Origin: Gammaproteobacteria bacterium | GTDB taxonomy: Bacteria; Pseudomonadota; Gammaproteobacteria; Steroidobacterales; Steroidobacteraceae | Length of the DNA: 11,249 nucleotides | NCBI GenBank assembly: GCA_020846815.1 | Contig: JADLDF010000343.1 | Coordinates: 1 to 11,249, forward strand | Reading direction: 5' to 3' | Notes under the pieces: model-generated | Seen by the model: the letters and a program-made list of their open reading frames with translations, nothing else | What the model was told of the DNA's origin: nothing | Databases searched by the model: none | Translations under genes and position numbers: made by a program | In this document: piece by piece, positions 1,370 through 11,069 of the stretch | Layout of the letters: every line of letters starts with the position of its first letter | How positions within the stretch are numbered: the stretch's first letter is position 1

Positions 1370-3295
1370 ATGAGCAGGAAGATCGGCAGGGGACGGAAGA
1401 TCGACCGCCGGAAATTCGTTTCGGCGATCGCGGCGGCCGGTGCGACGAGCGCCTTGCCCGAAGCGGATGCGAGTCCGGCAGGGACGGGTGCGGCGGCCAC
1501 CGGCGCCGCGCAGATCGGCGTCGCAACCGCGGGCTCGCCGTCGATCGACACGAGCTGCGGCTCCGACTTCATGGTCGACGTCGTCAAGTCGCTCGGCATC
1601 GACTACGTGTTCTCGAATCCCGGCTCGAGCTTTCTCGGCCTGCACGAGTCCATCGTCACCTACGGCGCGAACCGCGCGCCGGAGTTCATCACCTGCATGC
1701 ACGAGGAGTCGGCCGTCGCGATGGCGAACGGCTACTACAAGGCGGCGGGCAAGCCGGCGGCGGCGCTCTGCCACTCGACCGTGGGCCTGCAGCACGCGGC
1801 CATGGCGCTGTACAACGCCTGGTGCGATCGCGTGCCGCTGATCACCATCCTCGGCAACACGCTCGATCTCACCCGGCGCATGGGCGGCAACGACTGGCGC
1901 CACTCCGCGCAGGACCCGGTGGCGATGGTCCGCGACTTCGTGAAGTGGGACGACCAGCCGACCACGCTGCAGGGCTTCGCTGAATCGTTCGTGCACGCCT
2001 ACCGCATCGCCTGCACGCCGCCGATGGAGCCGGTGGCGATCGTCGCCGACAGCGAGCTGCAGGAAGTCGAGGTGCCGAATCGCGCGGCGCTGCGGGTGCC
2101 GAAGCATTCGCCGGTCGTTCCGCCGCAGGGCGAAGCCGGTGCACTGCGCGAGGCGGCGCGCTGGCTGGTCGCGGCCGAGCGGCCGTTGATCGTCGTCGAC
2201 CGCATGGCGCGCACGCCCGCGGGCATGCGGCTGCTGGTGGAGCTCGCCGAGGCGCTCGGCGCGCCGGTGATCGACATCGCCAGCCGGCAGAACATGCCGA
2301 CCCTGCATCCGCTCTACCAGAACGCGCAGAGCGCCAGGCTGATCGCGCAGGCGGACGTGATCCTCGGCCTCGAGGTCACGGACTTCTGGGGCCAGGTCAA
2401 CCAGGTCGACCGCAGCGCCAAGACCAGCCGTCCGCGTCTCGCTGCGGGCGCGAAGACGATCACGATCGACGTCAACGACCTCTACCTGAAGTCCAACTAC
2501 CAGGACTTCCAGCGCTATGCGCCGGTCGACCTCGCGATTTCGGGCGACGCCGAGGCCTCGCTGCCGGCGCTGCTGGAAGCGATCCGCGCGGCGATGACCC
2601 GCGAGCGGCGCGACTCGCTGGCGCCGCGGCTCGAGGGCTTCCGCAAGGCCCACGCGGCCGCGCGCGAGGCGGCGCGCCAGGCCGCGTCCTACGGCTGGGA
2701 TGTGAGCCCGGTGTCGACGGCGCGGCTCTGCATGGAGCTCTGGCAGGCGATCCGCAACGAGGACTGGGCCCTGGTCTCGGTCGGTGCCTCCGAGGGCTTC
2801 GTCAGCAACTGGCCGCACCGGCTCTGGAACTTCGATCGCCACTACCGCTACCTCGGCGTCGGTGCGGGCGGGGGCGTCGGCTACGGCCTGCCGGCGGCCG
2901 TCGGCGCGGCGTTCGCCAACAGGGCGCTCGGGCGCTTCTCGGTCAACATCCAGTGCGACGGCGATTTCATGTACGCCAACGGCGCGCTCTGGACCGCGGC
3001 CCACCATCGCGTGCCGCTGCTGACCGTGATGCACAACAACCGCGGCTACGGCCAGGAGACGATGCTGGTGCAGGGCCTCGCGAACCGCCGCAACCGCGGC
3101 ATCGACACCGCGCACATCGGCACCGCGATCAACGATCCGCCGATCGACTACGCGAAGCTCGCCGAGGGGATGGGTGTCTGGTCGATCGGGCCGATCACCG
3201 ATCCGGTCAGGCTTGCGCCCGCGTTGAAACGCGCGGTCGAGGTCGTGAAACAGGGCCAGCCGGCGCTGGTCGACGTCGTCACGCAGACGCGATAG
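1370..3295 (+). CDS. Tat-leader thiamine diphosphate enzyme, benzoylformate decarboxylase-like
   Basis: 641 aa. ThDP enzymes of this fold make or break C-C bonds next to a keto group. The first ~58 residues are an extension: a basic stretch, DRRKFV with Arg13-Arg14, a moderately hydrophobic Ala-rich stretch and an ADA-S possible cleavage site, i.e. a twin-arginine export signal. The PYR domain (about 60-240) has NPGS (Ser86), the cofactor-activating Glu112 in HEESAVAMANGYY, and His135 in CHSTVG. The middle domain (about 245-405) has His313 in TLHPLY and no obvious FAD motif. The PP domain has Asp530 in CDGDF and Asn557 in HNN, spaced 27 residues as in benzoylformate decarboxylase. From memory of that enzyme, Ser86/Glu112/His135/His313 match its Ser26/Glu47/His70/His281. 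Cys529 replaces the first Gly of GDG. ATG 1370 follows AGGGGGG and keeps the whole leader. The stop overlaps the ribosome site of the cytochrome gene. Acetolactate synthase-like naming is the alternative. Substrate unknown. Confidence 0.92.
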   Translation: MSRKIGRGRKIDRRKFVSAIAAAGATSALPEADASPAGTGAAATGAAQIGVATAGSPSIDTSCGSDFMVDVVKSLGIDYVFSNPGSSFLGLHESIVTYGANRAPEFITCMHEESAVAMANGYYKAAGKPAAALCHSTVGLQHAAMALYNAWCDRVPLITILGNTLDLTRRMGGNDWRHSAQDPVAMVRDFVKWDDQPTTLQGFAESFVHAYRIACTPPMEPVAIVADSELQEVEVPNRAALRVPKHSPVVPPQGEAGALREAARWLVAAERPLIVVDRMARTPAGMRLLVELAEALGAPVIDIASRQNMPTLHPLYQNAQSARLIAQADVILGLEVTDFWGQVNQVDRSAKTSRPRLAAGAKTITIDVNDLYLKSNYQDFQRYAPVDLAISGDAEASLPALLEAIRAAMTRERRDSLAPRLEGFRKAHAAAREAARQAASYGWDVSPVSTARLCMELWQAIRNEDWALVSVGASEGFVSNWPHRLWNFDRHYRYLGVGAGGGVGYGLPAAVGAAFANRALGRFSVNIQCDGDFMYANGALWTAAHHRVPLLTVMHNNRGYGQETMLVQGLANRRNRGIDTAHIGTAINDPPIDYAKLAEGMGVWSIGPITDPVRLAPALKRAVEVVKQGQPALVDVVTQTR

Positions 3296-3300
3296 GAGGG
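3294..3300 (+). promoter_or_regulatory. Strong ribosome binding site AGGAGGG overlapping the ThDP gene stop
   Basis: AGGAGGG starts inside the TAG stop (3293-3295) of the upstream gene and sits 6 nt before the ATG at 3307. It fixes the cytochrome start and indicates that the two genes are on one transcript with probable translational coupling. Confidence 0.8.
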
Positions 3301-3306
3301 TCGTGC

Positions 3307-3705
3307 ATGCGCTCCGCCTGTGTCATGCCGTTGCGTATCGTCGCCACGCTGGTTCTGGTCTTCGGTTTCGTCGGCATCGCGCTGCAGGCAAATGCTGCCG
3401 AGCCTGCGTCGCGCGCACCCTCGGCCGCCCGCGGCAAGCAACTCTACGTGACGGTCGGCTGCGTCCATTGCCACGGCAGTGTGGGGCAGGGCAGCAATGC
3501 CGGTACGCGCCTCGCTCCGGATCCGCTGCCGGCGGCAGGGATCGCCGCTTTCATCCGCGCGACCAATACGACGATGCCGCCCTACAGTGCCGAGGTGCTG
3601 AGCGATGCGGACGTCGCCGACATCGCCGCCTATCTGCGGACGATCCCGCCGGCGAAATCGCCGGACGACATCCCGGCGCTGCGCGCCGTGAAGGCTGCGC
3701 CGTAG
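3307..3705 (+). CDS. Small secreted monoheme c-type cytochrome
   Basis: 132 aa. This is an electron carrier that would act in the periplasm. Residues 1-30 are a Sec signal peptide: Arg10, a hydrophobic core IVATLVLVFGFVGIAL, and an ANA cleavage site before AEPAS. The mature part has one heme attachment site, Cys52-Val-His-Cys55-His56, in a class I cytochrome c context. Met90 in TTMPPYS is the likely sixth heme ligand, followed by the usual C-terminal helix (DADVADIAAYLRTIP). It starts 11 bp after the stop of the Tat-leader ThDP enzyme behind an overlapping strong ribosome site, so the two are almost certainly co-expressed. Both products appear directed to the periplasm, suggesting that the cytochrome is the redox partner of that enzyme; this pairing is inferred from position. 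It ends 7 bp from the convergent LLM gene. Confidence 0.92.
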   Translation: MRSACVMPLRIVATLVLVFGFVGIALQANAAEPASRAPSAARGKQLYVTVGCVHCHGSVGQGSNAGTRLAPDPLPAAGIAAFIRATNTTMPPYSAEVLSDADVADIAAYLRTIPPAKSPDDIPALRAVKAAP

Positions 3706-3712
3706 ACGATGC

Positions 3713-4714
3713 TCAGTCCGCGAACCGAGGCGCGATCTCGCGGCCGATGAGCTCGATCGACTGCTCGACGTCCTGATAGAGCCGCAGCGAGACGTGGCTG
3801 AGGCCGGCATCGCGCATCGCCTCGAGGTGATGCAGCACCGGGTCGAGCCTGGAGGGCGTCGACGTCAGCGTCAGGTGCTCGACCAGACGGTCGAGCAGCG
3901 ACTCCGGCAGGTCGTCGACCGGCGGGCCGCCGGTCGCCCAGCGATAGAACGCGGCCTGGCGCGCTTCGATCGTGTCGTACTCGGCGTCGGTCAGGAAGGT
4001 GGTGCAGACCCAGCGGCGGAACAGGCCGCGGAACGCGAGCCAGCGGCGTGCTTCGGCGCGCGCCTTGGCTTCGTCCTCGTAGACGTGCCAGGCGACGAAG
4101 TTGTTGAACTGCAGGGGTGCCGTGGCGGCGTGCCGGCGGGCGCGTGCTGCGGCGATGGCCGGCTTCAGCAGCGCCGGCGGCAGGTCGCTCAGCATGATGC
4201 CGTCGGCGGTCTTGGCGGCCATGGCCAGCATCTGCGGGCCGTTGGCACCGACCCAGATCATCGGCGGCGGCGCGCTCAGCCAGTCGCAGGCGAAGCCCCG
4301 GGTGCGGAACAGCTCGCCCTGGAAGTCGAAACGCCGGCCGGTCGCGGCCTCGCGCAGCAGTGCCAGGGCCTCGCGCACCGCGAGCACGCGCCGCTCGGGC
4401 TTCAGGCCGATGCCCTCGAGCGCCTCGCCGCCGCCGCCGAGCACGAGCTGCGCGCGACCGCCGGCGAGCTCGTTCAGCGTCAGCAGCGACATCGCGAGCT
4501 TCGCGGGATGAGTGTCGAAAGGGTTGACCGCGATCGGGCCCATCCTCAGCGTGCGCGTCGCCTGCGCCAGGGGCACGAACGCGACGAAGGGATCGCGGGC
4601 GCCGAGCAGGCTCGAGGTCCAGATGGCTTCGAGGCCGTGACGTTCGGCGAGCGTGCCGAGCTCGGCCAGGCGTTGCGGTGGCAGGCGCGGGTCGAGGATC
4701 AGGTGGATGCGCAT
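3713..4714 (-). CDS. LLM-class (luciferase-like) flavin- or F420-dependent oxidoreductase
   Basis: 333 aa, a normal length for single-subunit members of the bacterial luciferase/Mer fold, a TIM barrel that binds FMN or coenzyme F420. Typical family blocks are the N-terminal first strand (MRIHLILDP), AERHGLEAIWTS, the RTLRMGPIAVNPFDTHP block, TLNELAGGRAQLVLGGGGEAL near the middle, and MIWVGANGPQMLAMAAKTADGIMLS. No signal peptide is seen, so it should be cytoplasmic. ATG 4712-4714 was chosen because the conserved first strand begins there; the reading frame stays open upstream but that extension is basic and unlike the family. There is no clear Shine-Dalgarno. Its 3' end faces the cytochrome gene with only 7 bp between stops. 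Reaction and substrate cannot be told; resemblance to F420-type Mer-like members is only an impression. Confidence 0.88.
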   Translation of the reverse strand: MRIHLILDPRLPPQRLAELGTLAERHGLEAIWTSSLLGARDPFVAFVPLAQATRTLRMGPIAVNPFDTHPAKLAMSLLTLNELAGGRAQLVLGGGGEALEGIGLKPERRVLAVREALALLREAATGRRFDFQGELFRTRGFACDWLSAPPPMIWVGANGPQMLAMAAKTADGIMLSDLPPALLKPAIAAARARRHAATAPLQFNNFVAWHVYEDEAKARAEARRWLAFRGLFRRWVCTTFLTDAEYDTIEARQAAFYRWATGGPPVDDLPESLLDRLVEHLTLTSTPSRLDPVLHHLEAMRDAGLSHVSLRLYQDVEQSIELIGREIAPRFAD

Positions 4715-5008
4715 CGCTGGGACTTCGCTTCGCGGTGAGTGGCGTCGGTGGCGGGCACGAAGCTCATACGCATTCTTGCATAGCTCCTGCAGGAGTTTCC
4801 CGCGCCGCACCGCACGAGACATGGATGGTCGCCCGGCGGGCTCGCCGTGACCGGGAAATCGGCGTCATCGCGCACGGGCGCGGATCTTGCAGAAATCCTC
4901 GTTGAGGCTGCGCAGACGATCATGCCGTTGTGGCAGTGAGTGCGAGCGCGGGCTGGGTGGCGGCGCGGCCGCGTGCCCGCCTGGCCCGGGCCGTGCAACC
5001 TCGGCGCC
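4715..5008. other. Intergenic region upstream of the LLM gene; no gene seen
   Basis: 294 bp between the LLM start and the transporter stop, both minus strand. Frames open through it give arginine-, alanine- and cysteine-rich translations without recognisable domains, so I see no coding sequence. It should hold the LLM promoter. The only notable structure is the CTCCTGCAGGAG palindrome at 4784-4795. Confidence 0.5.
4784..4795. repeat. Perfect 12-bp palindrome CTCCTGCAGGAG
   Basis: A perfect dyad lies about 70 bp upstream of the LLM start, in slightly less GC-rich surroundings. It could be an operator for a dimeric regulator near the LLM promoter. Twelve-base palindromes do arise by chance in this composition, and no regulator gene is adjacent. 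Confidence 0.25.
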
Positions 5009-9076: not shown

Positions 9077-9106
9077 ACGCTAACGCCGCGTGACGCGCGG
9101 GGTCAA
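9077..9106 (-). promoter_or_regulatory. Candidate sigma70-like promoter for the H1-like gene
   Basis: On the minus strand TTGACC (9101-9106) matches the -35 consensus at five of six bases, and TAGCGT (9077-9082) is a weak -10 at 18-bp spacing, leaving a leader of roughly 30 bp before the ATG. It is the best -35 in this divergent 226-bp gap. Consensus match only. Confidence 0.35.
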
Positions 9107-9266
9107 TGGCGTTCGCAACGTGGCGCGCTCCACTCGCGCATCGCCACCGATTGCTGCATCGCGAATCCGGCCGATTCCGACACGAGATCGGGGAGGTCGC
9201 CGGACGAGCCATTCCAATGGCCTGCGTGACAGTCGCGGGCCCATCACGCCGCAGGAGTGCCCGGTC

Positions 9267-10091
9267 ATGCAGGACATCGTCTTCATCCACGGCATGTTCC
9301 TCAATCCCCGGAGCTGGCAGCCCTGGGTACGGTTTTTCGAGGAGCGCGGCCATCGCTGCCATGCACCAGCCTGGCCGCTGCACGAGGGCGATCCGCAGGC
9401 GCTGCGCGAGAATCCTCCGCCGGGTCTCGGCAAGCTGTCGCTGGCGGCCGTCGTCGATGCGATGGAGCGCGTGGTCGCGCCGCTCGAGCGCCCCATCCTC
9501 GTCGGCCATTCGGTCGGCGGGCTCATCGTGCAGATCCTGGTCGGCCGCGGTCATGGCTCGGCCGGCGTGCCGATCTGCTCGGTGGCGCCGAACCGCATGC
9601 TCTCGCTCGACTGGAGCTTCTTCCGCAACAGCGCCTCGATCACCAACCCGCTCAAGGGCGATGCGCTGTACCCGATGGACGCCGACGGCTTCCACCGCAA
9701 CTTCGCCAATACGCTGCCGCGCGCCGATTCGGATGCGGCCTGGCAGCGCTACGCCATGCACGAGAGCCGCAACGTGCTGCGCGACTGTATGGGCGACGAC
9801 GGCAAGGTGGACCTCGACGCCGCGCACGCGCCGCTGCTGTTCGTCGCGGCCGACCGGGACGAGATCATCCCGCCCGAGCTCTGCCGCAAGAACGCCCGCG
9901 CCTACACCCATCCGGGCAGCCGCGCCGACTACGTCGAGTTCGAGAACCGCGGCCACTTCATCTGCGGCGAGCCGCAATGGGAGGAGGTGGCCTCGCATAT
10001 CGAGAACTGGGTGCAGTCGGAAGCGGGCCAGGCCGGCGGGCTCGCGCGCGCGCCGTCGGTGGCGGCGAGCGGACCGAGGCCCGCGCCGTAA
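9267..10091 (+). CDS. Alpha/beta hydrolase, intact catalytic triad
   Basis: 274 aa. A soluble serine hydrolase with a complete set of active-site features: oxyanion motif FIHGMF (His8-Gly9), nucleophile elbow GHSVGG with Ser82, acid Asp198 in AADRDEIIPP, and His230 in ENRGHFICGEPQWEEV. The region between Ser82 and Asp198 forms the cap. The C-terminus after about residue 253 is a loose Ala/Pro/Gly-rich tail (QAGGLARAPSVAAS) probably outside the fold. No signal peptide, so cytoplasmic. ATG 9267 was chosen because it immediately precedes the first strand DIVFIHG and has AGGAG at 9253-9257; the frame is open about 59 codons further upstream, but that part looks like non-coding translation. It is not a near copy of the hydrolase at 7590-8426. 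Substrate unknown; esterase or lipase-type activity is the likeliest guess. Confidence 0.9.
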   Translation: MQDIVFIHGMFLNPRSWQPWVRFFEERGHRCHAPAWPLHEGDPQALRENPPPGLGKLSLAAVVDAMERVVAPLERPILVGHSVGGLIVQILVGRGHGSAGVPICSVAPNRMLSLDWSFFRNSASITNPLKGDALYPMDADGFHRNFANTLPRADSDAAWQRYAMHESRNVLRDCMGDDGKVDLDAAHAPLLFVAADRDEIIPPELCRKNARAYTHPGSRADYVEFENRGHFICGEPQWEEVASHIENWVQSEAGQAGGLARAPSVAASGPRPAP

Positions 10092-10394
10092 GGACAGAGG
10101 ACGGCCTGGGCGCATGCGTGCGTCCGGGCCGGGCCGGCTGATTCCTGGACGACCGTCGTCGTCACAATGACGGCTGGATGCTGCGGGCCCGGAGCCGGCC
10201 GCCGTGGCGGAGCCCGGATCAGCGCGCGGTACAGAGCGGAATAGAGCCACCAGGCCGGTAGGGGGTTGCGGCCGGATCTCTTCCCGGCCTGCGCGATTCG
10301 GCGTGCGAAATAGCGCGCGCCGCTGCGCTGCGCTGCCTGTCGCGGTTCCGCCACGTTGAATTCCGGGCTCCGCGCCCCTAATCTCGGGAATCCG
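10092..10394. other. Intergenic region before the HNH gene; no gene seen
   Basis: 303 bp. A small hairpin at 10158-10174 (GTCGTCA, CAA loop, TGACGGC with one G-T pair) may help end the hydrolase transcript, but it lacks a T tract. The middle is GC-rich with short direct repeats of CGCTG near 10320-10335. Minus-strand frames are open through it but run on antisense to the flanking genes, so I do not call a gene. The HNH promoter candidate is at its 3' end. Confidence 0.5.
10356..10384 (+). promoter_or_regulatory. Candidate promoter for the HNH gene (TTGAAT, 17 bp, TAATCT)
   Basis: TTGAAT (10356-10361) is two mismatches from the -35 consensus, with TAATCT (10379-10384) as a weak -10 at the ideal 17-bp spacing. 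If used, the transcript would begin about 10391, only a few bases before the ATG at 10395, so the message would be nearly leaderless. It would also rule out the in-frame TTG at 10356 as the start codon. Confidence 0.35.
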
Positions 10395-11069
10395 ATGACC
10401 GGTATCGACCTCGATCTGGCCGACCATGGGTACGACGACGATGTGCGCATCGATTCGCGCCCTGGCCTGGTGTCGCTCCAGCACCACGTGCTGCGGACCG
10501 ACGTCTCCGGCATGCCCCTGGAGTGGATCGACTACAAGGAAGCCGCAAGGCTCTATCACCAGAGCCAGGTCGCCTATACCTGCGGCACGCCGATCTTCCA
10601 GCTCTGCGGTGGCACCAATGCACTGACGGGCCGCCGCACCATTCTCGAGGTGAACTCCATCGTGGCCACGATGGGGCACACGGGCAACCCCGGCAACCTG
10701 CGCCACGACTACATCCCGCCGCTGAACAACCAGACCCTGTTCCGGCGCGACGCCTATCTGTGCCTCTACTGCGGCGGCCGCTTCCCGTCCCGCGAGCTGT
10801 CGCGCGACCACGTGCGGCCCTTCAGCCAGGGCGGCCGCGACACCTGGAACAACGTCGTCACGGCCTGCCGCCGCTGCAACAACCTCAAGGCTTCGCGCAC
10901 GCCCGAGCAGGCCAAGATGCACCTGCTGGCCGTGCCCTTCACGCCGACCTATGCAGAATACATCTTCCTCAAGGGCCGCCGCGTGCTGTTCGACCAGATG
11001 GCCTACCTGATCGCGCATTTCCCGCGTTCGAGCCCGCTGCACGGGCGGCTGCGCAAGCTCATGTCCTAA
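10395..11069 (+). CDS. HNH endonuclease
   Basis: 224 aa. The C-terminal half holds a textbook zinc-type HNH nuclease: Cys123-x-x-Cys126 (CLYCGGRF), catalytic Asp138-His139 in SRDHVRPFSQGG, Asn152/Asn153 in TWNNVV, and Cys158-x-x-Cys161 followed by NNLK. This ββα-metal fold cuts DNA with one divalent ion. The N-terminal ~100 residues (V-L-R-T-D-VSGMPLEWIDYKEAARLYH onward) form a domain typical of chromosomal HNH proteins of this length, with no other enzymatic motif seen. No signal peptide. ATG 10395 is preferred over the in-frame TTG at 10356 because a promoter-like sequence overlaps the latter. No modification enzyme or phage gene is adjacent, which argues against a restriction or homing role. 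The next gene encodes a 5'-3' exonuclease, so a joint DNA-repair role is possible. Confidence 0.9.
   Translation: MTGIDLDLADHGYDDDVRIDSRPGLVSLQHHVLRTDVSGMPLEWIDYKEAARLYHQSQVAYTCGTPIFQLCGGTNALTGRRTILEVNSIVATMGHTGNPGNLRHDYIPPLNNQTLFRRDAYLCLYCGGRFPSRELSRDHVRPFSQGGRDTWNNVVTACRRCNNLKASRTPEQAKMHLLAVPFTPTYAEYIFLKGRRVLFDQMAYLIAHFPRSSPLHGRLRKLMS

Follow-up and report, generated by a model that had tools for sequence, protein, structure and literature searches.

Thiamine diphosphate (ThDP) enzymes are commonly viewed as proteins of the cytoplasm. PoxB and POX are ThDP enzymes that feed electrons to the respiratory chain, PoxB doing so from the cytoplasmic side in a manner linked to flavin adenine dinucleotide (FAD) and quinone, and the 2-oxoacid:ferredoxin oxidoreductases, which have another domain architecture, are also cytoplasmic. 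In p-cresol methylhydroxylase (PCMH) and similar pairs, a periplasmic enzyme has a small cytochrome c of its own, and the cofactor is flavin, pyrroloquinoline quinone (PQQ) or molybdenum, not ThDP. To our knowledge, ThDP is not among the cofactors of cargo carried by the twin-arginine translocation (Tat) pathway. Here we describe a gene pair in an 11,249-nucleotide contig of a gammaproteobacterium of the Steroidobacteraceae (JADLDF010000343.1; the whole stretch is called the window below), in which a ThDP enzyme with a twin-arginine leader is followed directly by a small cytochrome c. Leader and pairing make it very probable that the enzyme is exported and works in a dedicated partnership with this cytochrome. 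The pair is made up as follows.

1370..3295, + strand: ThDP enzyme with Tat leader, 641 amino acids (Pfam TPP_enzyme_N, M and C)
3294..3300, + strand: AGGAGGG ribosome-binding site, overlapping the TAG stop codon of the enzyme (from the sequence)
3307..3705, + strand: partner cytochrome c, 132 amino acids, with an N-terminal signal peptide and one CxxCH (Pfam; signal peptide judged by eye)

An earlier note on this DNA had described a full-length ThDP enzyme with an N-terminal extension, a signal-peptide monohaem cytochrome c 11 bp downstream and a cytochrome ribosome-binding site overlapping the enzyme stop, and each of these readings holds. The 641-residue frame contains the three Pfam domains in order (TPP_enzyme_N 82 bits, M 45.3 and C 91.6), the frame at 3307-3705 matches Cytochrome_CBB3 and Cytochrom_C, the 11 bp between the genes are positions 3296-3306, and AGGAGGG runs into the TAG codon.

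The window enzyme begins MSRKIGRGRKIDRRKFVSAIAAAGATSALP, a twin-arginine leader, and its ThDP core starts from about residue 62. The leader reads MSRKIGRGRKIDRRKFVSAIAAAGATSALPEADA, and two features define the region.

1370..1549, + strand: N-terminal extension, residues 1-60, a twin-arginine leader plus Ala-rich linker that the sister clade lacks (alignment)
1406..1420, + strand: RRKFV twin-arginine core, residues 13-17 (alignment of Tat-clade rows)

The AlphaFold model of the enzyme has a mean predicted local distance difference test score of 89.4, with most of the core above 90 and residues 1-12 and 21-58 below 50. Of the 7,907 matches scored in our first search for homologues, the best 120 were tabulated; 110 of the 115 full-length proteins (at least 560 amino acids) among these best 120 carry RRx[FL][LFVIM] within the first 60 residues, so the Tat motif is kept across homologues. 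At least 10 uncharged residues follow the motif in 101 of these 110 proteins, and the position directly behind it is occupied by K in 40 and by S in 35. In alignment A1, a set of 110 hand-picked rows that excludes the leaderless homologues P0016, P0020, P0048, P0055 and P0062, residues R13, R14 and F16 are invariant (91/91 Tat-clade rows) and the leader is absent from 19 of 19 sister-clade rows. The window enzyme thus presents the sequence traits of a Tat substrate: an RRx[FL]-type motif, an uncharged stretch, an AxA-like site and conservation in homologues. Among the other called genes of the loci described below, RRxF[LFVIM] occurs in the first 45 residues of only 10 of 732, and genes for TatC and cytochrome c assembly were found in all five host genomes tested.

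The neighbourhood of the enzyme was surveyed in 84 loci holding 90 enzyme genes, namely the best 80 of 148 species-level genome loci, three plasmid loci and the window. Because simple gene calling missed some cytochromes, counts were taken from a six-frame search with a cytochrome profile made from 45 copies in these loci. A family cytochrome lies within 400 bp of 61 of the 66 genes with a Tat leader (Tat+), against 3 of the 24 scored genes without one (Tat-). Downstream on the same strand is the position of 58 of the 61 paired cytochromes, with 2 downstream on the other strand and 1 upstream, and the gap, estimated for 57 genes, measures 7-14 bp in 42 of them and exactly 11 bp in 16. The three Tat- genes with a cytochrome are those of L046 and L049 (both contig-cut) and L035 (a broken frame, with the leader visible in another frame). 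The five Tat+ genes with no family cytochrome in this range are those of L031, L053, L054 and L060 (contig end) and the second gene of L070, which belongs to a second family with another cytochrome.

Across 1.16 Mb the profile matched 69 segments. No more than 1.6 kb separates 67 of them from an enzyme gene, and the remaining two are in long reading frames that overlap an enzyme gene (L040, L028); a few of the 69 belong to other cytochromes close to the enzyme (weak in L002, dihaem in L026, L029 and L043). Among control genes of the same loci, a small CxxCH gene lay within 150 bp downstream on the same strand in 1 of 469, a figure that is a lower bound, since the simple gene caller passed over some true cytochromes including the window's own, and that uses a shorter distance than the enzyme count (58/66, 400 bp). 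When the simple gene calls are clustered, no neighbour family is more widespread than the cytochrome (44 loci), with an alpha/beta hydrolase as runner-up (10 loci).

Further genes extend the survey. A cytochrome accompanies 19 of 20 additional Tat+ genes, and the single miss is cut by a contig end; the count stood at 20 of 21 before we dropped an L087 row, a truncated duplicate of the third L037 gene that had been counted with its neighbour's cytochrome. Within the 19, the L086 cytochrome is on the other strand, and some genes are paralogues from genomes already sampled. Eight non-duplicate Tat- rows belong to this set: four have a cytochrome within 400 bp (a cut L087 copy, two L130 pieces and one L131 piece), L092-L094 have none, and for the second L131 piece the cytochrome is 823 bp away. 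The conserved adjacent cytochrome c, for which a neighbourhood survey had been recommended in the earlier note, was found in both rounds. Of the outcomes that the note named as refuting its interpretation, neither the lack of a Tat signal across homologues nor the lack of a conserved cytochrome neighbour was thus observed. In the Bradyrhizobium loci L035, L130 and L131, the enzyme frame is broken and the adjoining cytochrome still matches the profile.

A mirror-tree comparison of the 61 pairs (Tat+ enzymes whose cytochrome is at most 400 bp away) gave r = 0.786, the best of 2000 shuffles reaching 0.147; shared species history contributes to this r. An earlier version (r = 0.51, 67 rows) took in cytochromes more than 400 bp away or belonging to other genes. 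Mapped onto an 86-row tree, the Tat state needs a minimum of one change (support 100) and the cytochrome a minimum of three; the support belongs to the branch that separates off the non-Tat group, and the FastTree value of 0.036 for the re-rooted Tat clade is not trusted. Left out of this tree were L046, L060, L066 and the second L070 gene, and L035 and L049 stand in it without a Tat state. The trees suggest that, within the window's family (family 1), leader and cytochrome probably came together once and then stayed together, and the many family-1 pairs show long retention, not many origins. Enzyme and cytochrome also move together: tandem pairs occur three times in L037 and twice in L058, and the third enzyme of L037 has its closest relative in the enzyme at L058_8001, whose cytochrome is likewise the closest to that of the third L037 pair. 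The three L037 pairs span 8001-14959, in a small genome of about 2.6 Mb that has nine enzyme matches in all.

A further ThDP enzyme, in L070 (9807-12069), is 24% identical to the window's, has a Tat leader of its own and adjoins a different CxxCH protein that no Pfam model matched. Its homologues carry a leader in 120 of 120 cases (best 120 of 1,389). A small CxxCH protein lies directly beside the enzyme in seven of seven loci at an identity of at least about 37% (L133, which is L070, L134 and L136-L140, the CxxCH proteins being alike by eye), a count that leaves out L135, which is 30% identical to the second family and has no RR leader, and includes L138, whose frame is reported with one internal stop. 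The CxxCH gene is upstream of the enzyme in five loci and downstream in two. No further match at the strict threshold was found among 297 genomes drawn from the phylum of the L070 organism. A tree was built from 22 of the 65 family-1 genes, 24 leaderless rows and 9 rows of family 2. In it the two Tat families are separate, with the leaderless rows between them and two as the fewest changes; given its long branches and quick method, the tree carries moderate weight, and gain and loss are not separable in it. Since a second Tat+ ThDP family has a different cytochrome c in all seven loci, the pairing probably arose twice, and its presence in two lineages of enzyme, each with another cytochrome, makes it more likely that the pairing has a functional reason.

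The partner cytochrome has two conserved haem-related features.

3460..3474, + strand: CVHCH haem c attachment motif, both Cys in 62/62 and His in 98% of family rows
3574..3576, + strand: Met of MPPY, with Met-Pro in 62/62 family rows

The Pfam match, the single CxxCH and the conserved downstream Met are those of a class-I monohaem cytochrome c, and by analogy with this class the Met of MPPY is probably the distal haem ligand. One CxxCH is present in 59 of the 61 paired partners, two in one and none in one. At the C terminus of the family (about 3670-3690 in the window), a conserved IPxL tail follows the last helix, with Leu in 98% of 62 rows, and may be a docking element for the enzyme. A fused enzyme-cytochrome protein was considered and rejected, as CxxCH occurs in none of the best 120 of the 7,907 enzyme homologues. 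The public annotation of Caballeronia zhejiangensis has a 'thiamine pyrophosphate-binding protein' and, 8 bp on, a 'c-type cytochrome', the latter with two haem motifs.

In three acidobacterial loci, L026 (3813-5191), L029 (7679-10673) and L043 (6205-9165), the partner cytochrome has a membrane-anchor-like N terminus and is followed by a dihaem cytochrome. Next in L029 and L043 comes a PQQ-dehydrogenase-like protein, the L043 proteins being assigned by cluster only and the L029 protein scoring 542 bits to 'acido-empty-quinoprotein' (cut-off 650); in L026 the gene after the dihaem cytochrome is cut by the contig end.

The enzyme core retains the cofactor motifs.

1700..1705, + strand: His111-Glu112, both invariant (110/110 rows of A1), with Glu112 aligned to E47 of benzoylformate decarboxylase in solved structures
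2957..3040, + strand: ThDP/Mg2+ motif DGD...NN, residues 530-557, with D530, G531 and N557 invariant (110/110 rows of A1)

We take Glu112, as the counterpart of benzoylformate decarboxylase E47, to be the ThDP-activating glutamate. Domain order together with E112, D530, G531 and N557 places the protein in the ThDP decarboxylase/acetolactate synthase superfamily. The best NCBIfam model, NF006203 / PRK08327 'thiamine pyrophosphate-requiring protein', scores 265.4 bits, below its cut-off of 456; the acetolactate synthase model TIGR00118 (136.8 bits, cut-off 538.35) and the benzoylformate decarboxylase model NF005485 (175.8 bits, cut-off 493) are likewise not reached, the last at equivalog level. 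The benzoylformate decarboxylase catalytic set (S26, E28, H70 and H281) is incomplete, as S26 and H70 are kept (S86 and H135) and E28 is replaced by F88; the alignment fixed no counterpart for H281.

From the computed leader, fold, intact motifs, missing acetolactate-synthase-type FAD segments and near-constant pairing, we infer export, complex formation, a substrate and electron transfer in what would be a two-gene respiratory unit. The ThDP enzyme would fold and take up ThDP and Mg2+ in the cytoplasm and then leave by Tat, and the cytochrome c would be exported on its own route and have its haem attached in the periplasm. The ThDP ylide would attack a 2-oxoacid (or an acyloin or 1,2-diketone) to give a carbanion/enamine, which would hand two electrons, one by one, to the cytochrome. 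The acyl-ThDP left behind would be hydrolysed to a carboxylic acid, and the reduced cytochrome would feed terminal oxidases. This electron flow is chemically reasonable, because ThDP intermediates can reduce Fe-S clusters (PMC5020499) as well as dyes, O2 and an oxime (PMC11908136). The oxidative reading is strengthened by the second ThDP family, which has the same arrangement with a different cytochrome c. In its general form, a periplasmic 2-oxoacid (or acyloin) oxidase that passes electrons from the ThDP carbanion to its own cytochrome c, it is the reading we favour, with modest confidence. We advance only tentatively the strictly relay-free form, a Tat-exported ThDP 2-oxoacid:cytochrome c oxidoreductase without a flavin, Fe-S or lipoyl relay, in which haem c would take single electrons directly from the carbanion. 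It would be a new class of respiratory enzyme that evolved at least twice, when two distant lineages of ThDP enzyme each recruited a different cytochrome c.

Several observations weigh against this interpretation. Leader and cytochrome were seemingly gained once in family 1, and the 61 pairs therefore cannot be counted as separate events; the cytochrome profile, being built from neighbours in these loci, finds that family best. The RR motif is lacking in 5 of the 115 full-length homologues (P0016, P0020, P0048, P0055 and P0062), which as listed begin later, and the AxA-like site seen in 108 of the 110 RR-bearing homologues is a weak criterion for an Ala-rich leader. The acidobacterial L053 and L054 keep the leader with no family cytochrome and no CxxCH among their called genes; they are the only intact family-1 Tat+ genes found without a cytochrome in the 84 loci. 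The L031 cytochrome is 1.1 kb off on the opposite strand, and the L045 partner (1-396) is upstream of its enzyme with a haem motif that reads CFSCL, the His being replaced, through either a real loss or an assembly error. That clade-marking residues such as E563 and M565 line the active site is presumed. No pathway gene is common across the loci, and context hence gives no substrate; a pathway built from common neighbours was rejected, the next family after the cytochrome occurring in only 10 loci.

The nearest folds among the structural matches listed are non-oxidative benzoylformate decarboxylases, which favours a periplasmic enzyme with no redox role, a plain decarboxylase, lyase or carboligase whose cytochrome neighbour serves another periplasmic dehydrogenase that makes the substrate or oxidises the product aldehyde. 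The genes that follow the pair in L029 and L043 (dihaem cytochrome, PQQ-dehydrogenase-like protein) and in L026 (dihaem cytochrome, contig-cut gene) point the same way. However, no dehydrogenase is widely common to the loci, in which the cytochrome is the most widespread neighbour, and the second ThDP family has a cytochrome of its own; we judge this explanation unlikely. A PoxB-like route, in which enzyme-bound FAD or another organic redox cofactor reduces the cytochrome, is more doubtful still. The earlier note had seen no evident FAD motif, and the segments GGG, LGMLGMHG and GARFDD, which we take to be FAD-lining parts of acetolactate synthase, are indeed substituted or missing in the window protein and in five relatives set beside it, the comparison being with acetolactate synthases.

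Two further explanations appear highly improbable. The cytochrome might donate to the enzyme or protect it, for example by draining off-path radicals that arise with O2, instead of acting as catalytic acceptor; the periplasm is oxygen-exposed and the ThDP carbanion can react with O2 (PMC11908136), but this alone would not explain why the leaderless sister genes are partnerless. A non-functional RR leader on a cytoplasmic enzyme, with the cytochrome beside it by chance or regulatory association, is at odds with an RRx[FL] core that is kept while the linker after it varies, with its absence from all 19 sister rows, and with pairing far above the control of 1/469.

The window pair stands alone, as it has no same-direction neighbours: an opposite-strand gene (1-1190) lies 5′ of it and a convergent luciferase-family gene (3713-4822) lies 3′. 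Farther along, 9090-10091 is by eye a probable alpha/beta hydrolase (reading MQDIVFIHGMF...), and a family search with its alternative frame 9257-10091 matched nothing. An HNH endonuclease at 10356-11069 is weakly similar to Cas9d/IscB models (39-40 bits, far under the cut-offs). In L057 (7884-13483) and L059 (7761-13288), about 6 kb of DNA contain the Tat+ enzyme, its cytochrome, an ATP-binding cassette (ABC)-type binding protein and also a paralogue without the leader, which is 39-40% identical to the enzyme of the window, a layout that looks as if one pathway were placed on both sides of the membrane.

The window enzyme family is uncommon. Matches at E <=1e-80 occur in 4 of 398 genomes from the phylum of a Bradyrhizobium locus (three of them below 40% identity) and 6 of 199 from the phylum of an acidobacterial locus. 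Within the family to which L003 belongs the figure is 15 of 73, and within the genus of that Bradyrhizobium locus it is 11 of 146. Each count includes its central genome, which was picked because the gene is present. Both genes are short, they lie side by side, and cultured genera (Bradyrhizobium, Caballeronia and Novosphingobium) carry them, which makes the claim directly testable. If an exported ThDP oxidase does reduce its own cytochrome c, ThDP would be added to the cofactors of Tat cargo and coupled straight to cytochrome c, and bacteria would be able to oxidise 2-oxoacids or similar compounds outside the cytoplasm, with no need for uptake or coenzyme A. A full-text literature search, with most subscription papers outside its reach, found no description of an exported ThDP enzyme-cytochrome c system.

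Among known relatives, NF006203 / PRK08327 and the leaderless sister clade (38-45% identical) share a middle-domain deletion with the window enzyme; the sister clade, unlike the window clade, has neither Tat leader nor cytochrome. Several sister-clade loci hold ABC binding proteins, and an aldehyde dehydrogenase lies upstream in L072, L076 and L077. Benzoylformate decarboxylase and its relatives belong to the same ThDP decarboxylase superfamily at about 25% identity, whereas the window enzyme has a Tat leader, a cytochrome c partner and F88 in place of E28. Leader and cytochrome partner also set it apart from PoxB and POX, as does the lack of acetolactate-synthase-type FAD segments. The window cytochrome has a weak sequence match to the PCMH cytochrome subunit (E 4.3e-4). 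The proposed chemistry resembles that of the 2-oxoacid:ferredoxin oxidoreductases, which likewise combine ThDP radical chemistry with a one-electron acceptor, there Fe-S clusters and ferredoxin (PMC5020499) and here, as we propose, a cytochrome c.

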